From contig JAJXZR010000018.1 in NCBI GenBank assembly GCA_021779915.1, forward strand, positions 1 to 42,113: a DNA stretch of 42,113 nt. The letters are read 5' to 3'. Under the pieces are notes generated by a model that did no database searches, was not told the origin of the DNA, and worked only from the letters and a program-made list of their open reading frames with translations. Source of the stretch: a bacterium (GTDB lineage Bacteria > Patescibacteriota > Minisyncoccia > CAIUEV01). The translations under genes were made by a program, and so were the position numbers. Of this stretch, positions 4,930-35,517 are shown piece by piece. The first letter of the stretch is position 1, and every line of letters begins with the position of its first letter.

Positions 4930-5017
4930 AGGGTTTTGTATTATTTTGTATTATCTACTGAAATATTTTTTTAATTATAATCGAGTAATTTAGATGAGAA
5001 AAATATAAAAACAATAA

Positions 5018-5133
5018 TTAAAAATTTAAAGTTATAAGTTCAAAATTATTGTATCGCCGAAGGCGACAGTCAATTAAAATGTGAGCGATAGCTCACACCA
5101 AAATTTTGCACTTTTAACTTTCAACTTTTAACT
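5018..5133. repeat. Inverted-repeat element with two internal hairpins (family H2)
   Basis: Hairpins tcgccgaaggcga (5054-5066) and gtgagcgatagctcac (5081-5096), spacer agtcaattaaaat; outer arms of taaagtt/aactttt words. Confidence 0.85.
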
Positions 5134-5139
5134 AATGTT

Positions 5140-5885: not shown

Positions 5886-6103
5886 TGTCATTCCCGGCGT
5901 GTCGACCAGGAATCCAGGTTAGTATCACTAATTATTCTAATTAACCTAATTATTCTAAACAAAATACCAAGAAATAATTCCTAAGATTTGTTTATTTTTT
6001 ATTGTTTGATATTGGGTGCTTTTTTAGGTTAATTAGTATAATTAGATTAATTAGAGTAATTTTCTATTCTCCTGGATTCCCGGTCGACACGCCGGGAATG
6101 ACA
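5886..6103. repeat. Interspersed palindromic element, long type (~218 bp)
   Basis: TGTCATTCCCGGCGTGTCGACCAGGAATCCAGG ... CCTGGATTCCCGGTCGACACGCCGGGAATGACA, internal taattattctaattaacctaatt arms. Confidence 0.95.
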
Positions 6104-9218: not shown

Positions 9219-10589
9219 TTAGGAATTGGATAAATTAGAAATTTTCTCGGCTTCTTCTTCCTTCTTTTTGTCTTCTAAAAATTTAACTAATTTGTCCTGT
9301 TCGATAATGTGTTGCACTCCCGAAACCTGATCTCGAATAATCACCGTGTCTTCAATCGCTTCCTTGTATCCAATAAGAAGCACCCAACGAATTTTTTCTT
9401 GTTTAGCGATTCTAAGCTGAGTTCTAAGACTAGTCTTGGTAAAGGCCTCTTTAACATAATAACCGGCTTCCCAAAGTTTTTCAAAAAGCTGAAGAGCCTT
9501 GTGACGCGACTTATCTCCTAATTGGGCGAGAAAAACAAACGGCTTCTCAGACTTTTTCTTTTTCTTTTTTAATAATTCAGCTACCACTCTATCCATTCCC
9601 AGAGCAAAACCAACGGCCGGAGTAAATTTGCCCCCAAACTCCTCAACCAAATGGTCATATCTGCCACCACCCCCCAAGGCATTCTGTCTTCTTACCTCAT
9701 CTCCTTCTCTCCAAAACTCAAAGACTGTGTGTGTGTAGTAATCTAATCCCCGTACAAGCCGAGTGTTGATTCTATAGGGAATCTGAAGAGCATCAAGATA
9801 TTCTTGAACTTCTTTAAAATGTTTATTGCAGGCTTTACAGAGATTATCCATAATTAAAGGCGCATCTTTCAATTCTTCCTGGCAACTTTCTTCCTTACAA
9901 TCAAAAACCCGAAGGGGATTTTTCTTAGCTCTTATCTGACAATTTTCACACAATTTGGGTTTGACTCTGGCAAAATATCTTTTCAGCTGTTTATAAAATT
10001 CCCTTTGGCAATCCCGGCAACCCAAGGAATTGATTTCTAAAACTATATTCTCCAGTTCCAGTTTTCGAAAAATATAAAACGCAATTTGAATAAGCTGAGC
10101 CTCAGCAATAGGATACTCCACGCCAATCATTTCAAAATCCAACTGATGGGACTCCCGATACCTGCCTTCTTGCGGTCTTTCGTAACGAAAGATACTTCCC
10201 ATTGTGTAAAGCTTTACCGGATGTCTTAAACTCTGCATCCCATCTTCAAGATAAGCTCTGACGATTCCGGGTGTAATCTCCGGCCGAAGAGTAACTTTGT
10301 CTTCTCCTTGAGTAACAAAATTATACATTTCTTTATTGAGCACCCCGACTCCGTCATCGTTTGTTACTTTTTGAAAAAGGGAACTGTGCTCTAAAATAGG
10401 TGTTTCCAGATAGTTAAAATCAAACATTTTTCCCACCTCGTGAATCATTTGAGTAAATTTGACCCATTCTTCCGCTTCATTTTTGCAAATATCCCTCATC
10501 CCTCTAAGTGTTTGCAAGGAAAAATGTTCGCTCTGTCTTTTTTTAACAACTTCTTCCGCTTGTCTCTGACGCAATTTTCTTCGGCCCAT
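9219..10589 (-). CDS. hisS: Histidine--tRNA ligase
   Basis: LRGMRDI, TLRPEITPGIVRAY, FRYERPQEGRYRESHQLDFEMIG, LVRGLDYYTHTVFEFW. Confidence 0.95.
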   Translation of the reverse strand: MGRRKLRQRQAEEVVKKRQSEHFSLQTLRGMRDICKNEAEEWVKFTQMIHEVGKMFDFNYLETPILEHSSLFQKVTNDDGVGVLNKEMYNFVTQGEDKVTLRPEITPGIVRAYLEDGMQSLRHPVKLYTMGSIFRYERPQEGRYRESHQLDFEMIGVEYPIAEAQLIQIAFYIFRKLELENIVLEINSLGCRDCQREFYKQLKRYFARVKPKLCENCQIRAKKNPLRVFDCKEESCQEELKDAPLIMDNLCKACNKHFKEVQEYLDALQIPYRINTRLVRGLDYYTHTVFEFWREGDEVRRQNALGGGGRYDHLVEEFGGKFTPAVGFALGMDRVVAELLKKKKKKSEKPFVFLAQLGDKSRHKALQLFEKLWEAGYYVKEAFTKTSLRTQLRIAKQEKIRWVLLIGYKEAIEDTVIIRDQVSGVQHIIEQDKLVKFLEDKKKEEEAEKISNLSNS

Positions 10590-10652
10590 AATATTAGTTT
10601 ATCAAGTTATAAAGTTTGTAAAGTTATAAAGTAAATCACCTCATACGCATTA

Positions 10653-10753
10653 GCTATTATCCAGGATTCGGATAGTTTTATTTTCAAACTATGATTTTCT
10701 TGTAGGAAATCCCTTAGTTTGAAAATAAAACCATCCGAATCCTGGATAATAGC
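10653..10753. repeat. Long palindrome: 39-bp arms (one mismatch) and 23-nt asymmetric loop
   Basis: gctattatccaggattcggatagttttattttcaaacta / tgattttcttgtaggaaatccct / tagtttgaaaataaaaccatccgaatcctggataatagc. Confidence 0.97.
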
Positions 10754-10782: not shown

Positions 10783-11340
10783 CTATATCTTTATAATCTC
10801 TTCTTCCTTCCTATCTGCAATTTCGGTTAGTTCATTATTATACTTGTCCACGATTTTTTGCAAATCTTCTTTAGCTTTAAATTTATCATCCTCGGAAATT
10901 TTCTTCTCTTCTTCCATCTTTTTTATGTCATCCCAAACCTCTTCTCGCATCTGTTTAATGGAAATTTTTGATTTCTCTTTCTCTTTGTTCAGAAGTTTGA
11001 CTAATTCCATTCTTCTTTCTTCCGTCATCGCAGGTAGGGTTATTCTTATGGATTCTCCGTCATTCTGGGGATTAACTTTGAGATCCGACTCACCAATTGC
11101 CTTATCTATACTGACAAGATCATCTTTATTCCAAGGTGAAATCACAATCATTCGCGGTTCCGGAATGTTAATAGAAGCTATCTGTTTAATCGGCGATTTA
11201 CTCCCGTAATAATCAACCATAATGTTTTCCACCAAAACTGGCGTCGCTCGCCCAGTATGGAATTTCTTAATCTCTTCCTTGAAAACGGCCACTGATTTTT
11301 GCATACTGGTTTCGAGATTTTTGAGAAGGGGTTGATACAT
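10783..11340 (-). CDS. frr: Ribosome recycling factor
   Basis: HTGRATPVLVENIMVDYYGSKSPIKQIASI, RITLPAMTEERR. Confidence 0.95.
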   Translation of the reverse strand: MYQPLLKNLETSMQKSVAVFKEEIKKFHTGRATPVLVENIMVDYYGSKSPIKQIASINIPEPRMIVISPWNKDDLVSIDKAIGESDLKVNPQNDGESIRITLPAMTEERRMELVKLLNKEKEKSKISIKQMREEVWDDIKKMEEEKKISEDDKFKAKEDLQKIVDKYNNELTEIADRKEEEIIKI

Positions 11341-13601: not shown

Positions 13602-13734
13602 AGTTAAAAGTTGAAAGTTAAAAGTTGAAAGTTAAAAGTTGAAAGTTAGGAACTAAATTTTGCTTACATTTTGATTGAATGTCGCCAAAGGCGACTCTAA
13701 AACTTTGCACTTTTAACTTTATACTTTTGACTTA
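13602..13734. repeat. Inverted-repeat element of family H2 (single GC hairpin retained)
   Basis: gttaaaagttgaaagtt arrays, gattgaat + gtcgccaaaggcgac (13681-13695), cacttttaactttatactttt. Confidence 0.8.
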
Positions 13735-15185: not shown

Positions 15186-15320
15186 TTAATAAATGAAAAA
15201 TGTAAAAATCAAAATGGAAAATTATGGAGTCGCTTTGCGACAATCAATTAAATGTCTCCTATGGAGACACCTTAATTTTTCATTTTGATTTTTCCATTTT
15301 TCATTTTTTTCCATTTTTCA
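15186..15320. repeat. Inverted-repeat element of family H2 with two internal hairpins
   Basis: gtcgctttgcgac (15229-15241), aatcaattaaat spacer, gtctcctatggagac (15254-15268); outer arms aaaatcaaaatggaaa / catttttgatttt-like. Confidence 0.9.
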
Positions 15321-16667: not shown

Positions 16668-16888
16668 TGTCATCCCCGGCATGTCGACCGGGGATCCAGT
16701 TAGACTCACTAATTATTCTAATTAACCTAATTAACCTAATTATTCTAAACAAAATCCCAAGGACCAATTTCCAATATTTATCTTTATTATTTGGTATTTG
16801 GTGCTTTTTTAGGTCAATTAGTATAATTAGGTTAATTAGAATAATTTTCTACCCTCCTGGATCCCCGGTCGACACGCCGGGGATGACA
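16668..16888. repeat. Interspersed palindromic element, long type, upstream of prfA
   Basis: tgtcatccccggcatgtcgaccggggatccag ... ggatccccggtcgacacgccggggatgaca. Confidence 0.95.
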
Positions 16889-17981: not shown

Positions 17982-18194
17982 TGTCATCCCGGGCTTGACC
18001 CGGGATCCAAGAAAATAGAAAATTACTCTAATTAACCTAATTATACTAATTGACCTAAAAAAGCACCAAATACCAAACAATAAAAAATAGAAATTGGTTT
18101 TTGGTATTTGTTTAGAGTAATTAGATTAATTAGAATAATTAGAATAATTTAGTGAGTCTAACCTGGATCCCCGGTCGACACGCCGGGGATGACA
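17982..18194. repeat. Interspersed palindromic element, long type, inverted relative to 16668-16888
   Basis: Interior reads as reverse complement of the upstream copy (…aatttagtgagtctaacctggatcc). Confidence 0.93.
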
Positions 18195-20469: not shown

Positions 20470-20590
20470 TAAAAATGGAAAATGGAAAGATCAAAATGCA
20501 AAATTATGGTGTCGCTCCGCGACAATTAATTGAATGTCGCCACAGGCGACTCCTAAATTTTCCATTTTGATTTTTAAATTTTTAATTTAT
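20470..20590. repeat. Inverted-repeat element of family H2 with two internal hairpins
   Basis: gtcgctccgcgac (20511-20523), aattaattgaat spacer, gtcgccacaggcgac (20536-20550); outer gatcaaaatgcaaaatt / aattttccattttgatt. Confidence 0.92.
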
Positions 20591-20927: not shown

Positions 20928-20967
20928 TCTTATAATTTTAAAACAAAGGAAAATTATAATATTCATG

Positions 20968-21106
20968 TGTCATCCCGGGCTTGACCCGGGATCCAGGAGA
21001 GCGATATTAATCTAATAAAGTACTATTTTACCCAGTTTATTAACGATACTCATTAAAATAACATTTTATTAGCCTAACTGGATCCCGGGTCAAGCCCGGG
21101 ATGACA
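20968..21106. repeat. Interspersed palindromic element, short type
   Basis: tgtcatcccgggcttgacccgggatccagg ... ctggatcccgggtcaagcccgggatgaca. Confidence 0.96.
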
Positions 21107-21160
21107 CATTATTGTAAATTTGTTCGTTTTAAAGATTAAAAATTACAAAATTTAAAAATT

Positions 21161-23486: not shown

Positions 23487-23697
23487 TTTTCCCGCCCTAG
23501 GCGGGTCGCCCAAGGAGACAATTTTCAAACTCGGAATTAAATTTAGCATCGTGTCATCCCGGGTCAAGCCCGGGATGACACGTGTTTCTGGGGTTTGCTT
23601 TGTTAAAACATTGTGAAATTAATAAATTGAAAATTGTTTGTCTCCTTAGGCGACCCGCCTCGGGCGGGAAAATTAGAAATTAGAAATTGAAAATTAA
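23483..23697. repeat. Nested inverted repeat with solo TGTCATCCCGGGTCAAGCCCGGGATGACA (23552-23580) in its loop
   Basis: cccgccctaggcgggtcgcccaaggagaca ... tgtctccttaggcgacccgcctcgggcggg, outer aattttcaatttctaatttt / aaaattagaaattagaaattg. Confidence 0.93.
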
Positions 23698-26324: not shown

Positions 26325-26610
26325 AGTTTATCAAGTTATAAAGTTCATCAAGTTTATAAAGCATTGATGTTTATTAATATTCCAGCTCCTATGGACTTTA
26401 GATACCGTTTTCTAAAATTATTGTTTTCTGATAGAAAATACCTCAATTTTAGAAAACGGTATCTAAAGTCCATAGGAGCTGGAATACAAAAATTCTTAAA
26501 ACTATTTTATAATTTTTCCGTACTAAAACTTGATGTCCTCCAGGGGCGGATACGCCTCTGGTGGAAGCTTGGTGCACTTTATAACTTGATAAACTTTATA
26601 ACTTTATAAA
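26325..26610. repeat. Composite inverted repeat: outer GTTTATCAAGTTATAAAG arrays containing a long palindrome and a GC hairpin
   Basis: gagtttatcaagttataaagttcatcaag ... ctttataacttgataaactttataac; GC hairpin cctccaggggcg/cgcctctggtgg at 26537-26564. Confidence 0.9.
26378..26486. repeat. Perfect 42-bp-arm palindrome with 25-nt asymmetric loop
   Basis: tattccagctcctatggactttagataccgttttctaaaatt / attgttttctgatagaaaatacctc / aattttagaaaacggtatctaaagtccataggagctggaata. Confidence 0.98.
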
Positions 26611-35407: not shown

Positions 35408-35517
35408 ACATTAGTTCATAAAGTTTATCAAGTTCATCAAGTTTATCAAGTTATAAACTATGAATGTTTTGTTTTTCTTTATGAACTTTACAAACTTTAT
35501 AACTTGATAAACTGATT
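35408..35517. repeat. Inverted array of 9-bp words between nusG and rplK
   Basis: agttcataaagtttatcaagttcatcaagtttatcaagttat ... ctttatgaactttacaaactttataacttgataaact. Confidence 0.9.

Follow-up and report, generated by a model that had tools for sequence, protein, structure and literature searches.

A locus and a family of palindromes

Why would two palindromes in one genome have nearly the same loop, when their arms differ in sequence and pair almost perfectly? This question is raised by the window, i.e., the whole stretch of 42,113 nucleotides analysed here, in which both palindromes (10653–10753 and 26378–26486) are intergenic. The surrounding genome (G000) comprises 1,117,961 bases in 48 contigs and is 96% complete. 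The nearest relatives of its hisS that were found belong to Ca. Moraniibacteriota and a lake bin (73–77% identity), and the host is thus probably a Moranbacteria-like patescibacterium. The first palindrome (F1 copy 1) is located between two genes of the minus strand, with the start codon of hisS (9219–10589) on its left side and the stop codon of frr (10783–11340) on its right side; the gap between these genes measures 193 bp, compared with 22 bp in a relative (L029). On the plus strand, as for all elements given below, its left arm (10653–10691, 39 bp) and right arm (10715–10753) are reverse complements of each other except for one A·C mismatch (G·T on the minus strand), just as originally described. 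They enclose an asymmetric core of 23 nt (10692–10714; TGATTTTCTTGTAGGAAATCCCT), in which 10693–10700 pair with 10704–10711 as an inner stem and an unpaired T (10692) lies opposite CCT (10712–10714). In F1 copy 2, the left arm (26378–26419, 42 bp) pairs perfectly with the right arm (26445–26486) around the core ATTGTTTTCTGATAGAAAATACCTC (26420–26444), a variant with TTG...TACCT. The likeness of the two loops was reproduced (17 of 22 positions), as was the presence of a common repeat, GTTTATCAAGTTATAAAG (10597–10614 and 26326–26343), within arrays of 9-bp units (10597–10631 and 26326–26360); it precedes each palindrome on the left by 20–40 bp.

A search of the genome with the core pattern TTTTCTNNTAGNAAATNCCT, allowing up to one mismatch, gave 13 matches, and all 13 lie in pairing arms, including one (C32_9890) that pairs over only ~10 bp, since a different repeat breaks into its right arm. 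With the original prediction a covariance-model search of the genome had been proposed; the model, built from 15 copies, matches 24 copies in 1.12 Mb, nearly every one of which centres a near-perfect palindrome (the census covered pattern and model matches plus ~300 kb of the genome). The arms are 36–51 bp long in 20 complete copies. Incomplete are, besides C32_9890, a degenerate copy (C41_34259), a short one (C19_6577) and one cut by the end of its contig (C27). The likeness of the two loops was to be considered chance if no further palindromes with this core existed, whereas 24 copies were found. The genome is AT-rich and has many simple repeats, but the core matches within pairing arms, together with the shuffle and slid-register controls given below, leave almost no room for chance or a decaying simple repeat as the origin of these palindromes.

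Read on the plus strand, the F1 core is T-GATTTTCT-NNN-AGGAAATC-CCC, which forms an inner stem of 8 bp and an internal loop of one against three nucleotides. Changes between copies leave the pairing of this stem intact, and its T·G wobble is always found on the plus strand as read; thus, if a strand folds, it should be that one. Arrays of GTTTATCAAGTTATAAAG units are found to the left of seven of the 24 copies, both window copies among them, always in the same orientation (C42_7341, being more degenerate, was added as the seventh by visual inspection), and window copy 2 is the only one with a further array farther off on the right. These arrays may reflect an insertion preference or nesting. 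Elsewhere, the 9-bp-unit arrays are themselves arranged as palindromes, two of them facing each other across a short AT-rich loop (window 35440–35513; L098, L099, L107, L108).

None of the 19 copies tested lies in a gene, and the gene context of F1 is mixed (divergent, convergent and co-directional), for which reason a role as terminator or leader was rejected. One copy (C45:50738–50846; L091) is located between a CIRCE operator and the groEL start codon. No consistent tie between F1 orientation and GC skew was detected in 18 stretches plus the window.

Arms that change on both sides

In the original prediction the arm sequences were called unrelated. Counted outward from the core, this holds from position 29 onward, where no homology between copies exceeds that of shuffles and yet pairing runs on to 36–51; it does not hold for positions 1–12 and 20–28, which are conserved in register between copies, and positions 13–19 are weakly conserved. 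The further claim that pairing rather than arm sequence is maintained or copied was supported by the covariation test proposed with it. In the 15-copy alignment, 98.6% of the cells are paired and 126 cells show two-sided change, compared with 31 expected from shuffles, and slid registers give no support. Non-Watson-Crick pairs are rare in the arms of the 20 complete copies (9 of 868). At saturated positions, 66–67% differ between copies, whereas only 5 of 455 are mismatched within a copy. The closest copies differ by 84 two-sided and 3 one-sided changes, and 44 of the 84 are transversion flips that have no route via G-U (all three numbers are counted over pairs of copies and are not independent events). 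G-U intermediates are normal under selection for RNA pairing, but not under copying of arms; therefore, the two-sided changes favour copying.

Template switching is known to homogenise the arms of inverted repeats (PMC8604942) and also to generate perfect hairpins and keep them in that state (PMC8794818). Homogenisation of this kind should leave two-sided changes without one-sided intermediates, transversions included, and this is what we observed in F1. Independent mutation with selection for RNA pairing does not easily explain the F1 arms, whereas template switching does. Of the two alternatives contained in the original prediction, the data thus favour arms that are copied over arms maintained by selection, pointing to a mobile element that repeatedly recopies its second arm from the first.

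The alternative that F1 acts as a structured non-coding RNA or as a cis-regulatory hairpin has to be weighed against this. In that case both arms would be transcribed, and selection on a long stem, for instance as RNase III substrate or protein-binding hairpin, would enforce compensation. The strong covariation, the conserved internal loop and the inner hairpin that keeps its G·T wobble on one strand only, with compensatory change, would all be expected, and some F1 copies are located in 5′ leaders, such as the one upstream of groEL. However, the arms are almost devoid of G-U, transversion flips make up half of the two-sided changes, the gene context is mixed, and one copy is degenerate and another has an interrupted arm. 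In addition, no F1, F2 or F3 element searched reached any gathering score in Rfam (F2 and F3 are described below); weak matches to pre-miRNA models occurred, as they do for any long hairpin. Taken together, we regard an RNA function as the origin of the F1 arms as rather unlikely.

Other families and their distribution

A second family in the same genome, F3, has 15 copies (C28:15558–15677, C19:4778–4901, C42:5895–6014 and 12 more; L198–L212), one of them cut by a contig end. Its core is GAGGAC(C)TGTCTGAGCGAAGCGAGTTCCGCA, its arms are mostly 38–47 bp long, and its covariation lies far above that of shuffles. The F3 core contains GCGAAGC, which forms a very stable DNA mini-hairpin. Two F3 copies (L199 and L203) have common arms, and a matching 8-bp flank lies on one side of the core in the first and on the other side in the second, the arrangement expected if the core had been inverted relative to the flank; this flank match is short, and one of the two copies is at a contig end. 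The third family, F2, was found in the sister genus (G001; L135–L157), with ~24 copies, the core GAGAAGTCACCCTGCCGGGGGCA and arms of 28–34 bp in most copies. Its variable arms are near-perfect and its layout is similar, with a conserved box, a paired stretch free in sequence and a second box. Non-Watson-Crick pairs in F2 lean to C·A on the strand as read (17 versus 7, counts that are partly affected by two misaligned copies).

The position of these pairs differs between families. In F2, no non-Watson-Crick pair occurs beyond position 15 from the core, and 13 of the 15 such pairs in F3 stay within the same distance; F1 mismatches are not clustered near the core. Some of the core-near pairs are common to several copies and were thus inherited. 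Mismatches close to the core in F2 and F3 fit a distal arm that is rebuilt from a primer near the core, but this gradient is missing in F1.

F1 was found neither in eight other genomes of its order nor in the two that carry the nearest relatives of its hisS, and a shallow scan of the rest of 387 sampled genomes of the class, in which weak copies may be missed, gave no convincing match. Weak matches in G055 and G360 were discarded, being palindromes without the core. A plasmid search with the F1 consensus returned only weak, half-length matches to Lactococcus plasmids. Among the genomes searched, F1 is therefore known only from this one. The F3 model, on the other hand, has matches in eight other genomes of the class at E ≤ 1e-4, at least six of them convincing, which come from several other families. 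In these relatives the frame GAGGACTGTYTGAG...CGAGTTCCGCA is largely kept, and the apical stem and arms differ yet pair. The genome is a short-contig assembly in which several contigs end in these palindromes (C27:1, C32:16800, C21:1), but the agreement between separate genomes argues against an assembly artefact.

Single-stranded DNA can also carry promoters or origins of the complementary strand, as in M13 ori(−) and Frpo. Folded F1 shows TTGGAA-N16-TATGAT, resembling −35 and −10 boxes, in several copies with the same 16-nt spacing, and its paired length is close to the footprint of RNA polymerase. However, the −10-like box is TGTTGT or TGTGAT in other F1 copies, F2 does not possess such a box and, as stated above, orientation does not follow GC skew consistently. 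We consider a promoter or origin of this type very unlikely.

Evidence for insertion

Palindromes resembling F3 occur in frame within genes of other genomes, and the F3 relatives are thus inserting elements. Two are found in recJ of G243 (L215, L224), where they add residues relative to the solved RecJ, one in tgt of G033 (L220), with 36 residues at a place that has 2 in the solved enzyme, and one in a membrane-protein gene of G166 (L218). The net insertion approximates the whole palindrome in tgt (~102 versus 98 bp) and in recJ (~96 versus 87 bp), indicating that the arms arrived together with the core.

This bears on the idea that, on insertion of the core, host DNA next to it was captured in inverted copies and now forms the outer arms. 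The outer F1 arms are without homology between copies, arms overlap gene ends in C29 and C36_46133, and the arm of the latter is like another genomic repeat, all of which would agree with capture. Nevertheless, the net insertions in tgt and recJ speak against it, and the paired but weakly conserved positions 13–19, lying between conserved boxes, cannot be captured flank. Flank capture is therefore disfavoured for F3 in genes and may apply to the outer arms of F1; as a general explanation we regard it as improbable.

Target duplications were not detected: flank-repeat means were 0.92, 1.13 and 1.61, compared with 1.35, 1.00 and 1.17 for shuffled pairings. Empty or polymorphic sites were not seen within one species. 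Features of a MITE derived from a DDE transposon are missing, as conserved terminal inverted repeats (the outer arms being unrelated between copies) and target-site duplication were not found.

Mobilisation by a RAYT (the Y1 transposase TnpA_REP), as for REP elements, or an origin as MITE of an IS200/IS605 element would account for many intergenic hairpins with an internal bulge and species-specific cores. In contrast, the Y1_Tnp profile (PF01797) has no match in the 96%-complete genome and matches five control genomes, no conserved tetranucleotide (GTAG or similar) is present at the foot of the hairpin, and on inspection the sequence adjoining both F1 arm ends has nothing in common between copies. 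REPs are moreover 20–50 nt long with conserved stems (PMC8266576). Such a mechanism is quite improbable for F1.

Proposed mode of spread and known palindromic elements

We propose that F1 is a dispersed non-coding palindromic element whose arms are homogenised by copying, and that it is one of a broader group of mobile palindromes in Patescibacteria (probability roughly 60%). The best reading is a new palindromic repeat, similar to Rickettsia palindromic elements (RPE) and REP, with homogenised arms. This would account for the asymmetric conserved core, the two conserved arm boxes and the variable stretches that are complementary within each F1 copy, and for the insertion between conserved genes and, for the F3 kind, also in frame within genes. 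The inserted unit would be the whole hairpin. Its core might fold in single-stranded DNA (or RNA) and be recognised by a putative mobility function. During replication or transposition one arm would template the other, either by intramolecular template switching or by fold-back priming that starts at the core, and a mutation in one arm would thereby reappear in the other, so that arms could drift while staying perfect. Such elements may be mainly selfish, and a host role would not be needed.

Several observations count against this proposal. No enzyme was found, the PF01797 profile being without match in the genome, and the results on target duplications and on empty or polymorphic sites within one species also stand against it. 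Box B (positions 20–28) lies in the paired stem and yet keeps its sequence between copies, so selection acts on part of the arm sequence. The C·A lean of the F2 mismatches hints at selection on one folded strand. Fold-back priming, finally, predicts mismatches near the core, which are not seen in F1 though they are in F2 and F3. In a bolder form of the proposal, these palindromes would be a hitherto undescribed class of mobile DNA in Patescibacteria that multiplies via a folded single strand: its core would prime, one arm would be hereditary and the other rebuilt in each cycle, with stems that evolve freely and always pair. It is tempting to speculate in this direction, but we hold this form only tentatively. 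Our literature search found nothing on palindromic elements in Patescibacteria.

Among known systems, integron attC sites also keep structure over sequence and act as a folded hairpin; their conserved boxes lie at the foot and the apex varies, an arrangement opposite to the conserved apical core and variable foot described here. RPE, which comprise several families of small palindromic repeats, insert in frame into genes (PMC10969869). Dispersed palindromic families within one genome (F1 and F3, with F2 in the sister genus) and in-frame insertion by the F3 kind (recJ, tgt, membrane-protein gene) resemble them, but F1 was found in no gene among the tested copies, and for RPE the literature searched does not report a conserved core between arms that vary freely and pair perfectly. 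REP/REPIN elements with their RAYT are likewise numerous intergenic bulged hairpins with cores that differ between genera; they differ in that the genome studied here is without a Y1 match and that its hairpins measure 95–130 nt with variable stems, compared with 20–50 nt and conserved stems. Mobility is likewise presumed for the dispersed repetitive hairpin elements (RHE) of sponge mitochondria and the double-hairpin elements of Allomyces. Sponge RHE, however, combine conserved stems with variable loops (PMC2800124), the reverse of F1. Repeats homogenised by template switching and quasipalindrome correction have arms made identical by copying (PMC8604942, PMC8794818), but there it is a mutational process at isolated repeats, and here a whole dispersed family has a core in common.

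Covariation is usually read as selection on RNA structure. Here dozens of hairpins covary and copying explains this better, which calls for caution in RNA discovery based on covariation. The families also provide a natural system in which to see how far perfect stems can be made and kept by template switching alone. Active palindromic repeats in tiny, streamlined genomes, some of them in frame in conserved genes, would imply a putative mobility function.

The window contains further repeats. Palindromes with simple-repeat arms around GTCGCC...GGCGAC hairpins, less perfect than F1, are located at 5010–5139, 13615–13733, 15191–15306 and 20479–20582. Three others have arms of the CTAATTAACCTAATTA type (5930–6061, 16711–16846 and 18020–18150), and the first two of these have a centre of ~70 nt in common. 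A REP-like repeat, TGTCATCCCGGGCTTGACCCGGGATCCAG, is found in inverted arrangement at 20965–21109 and 23550–23582.
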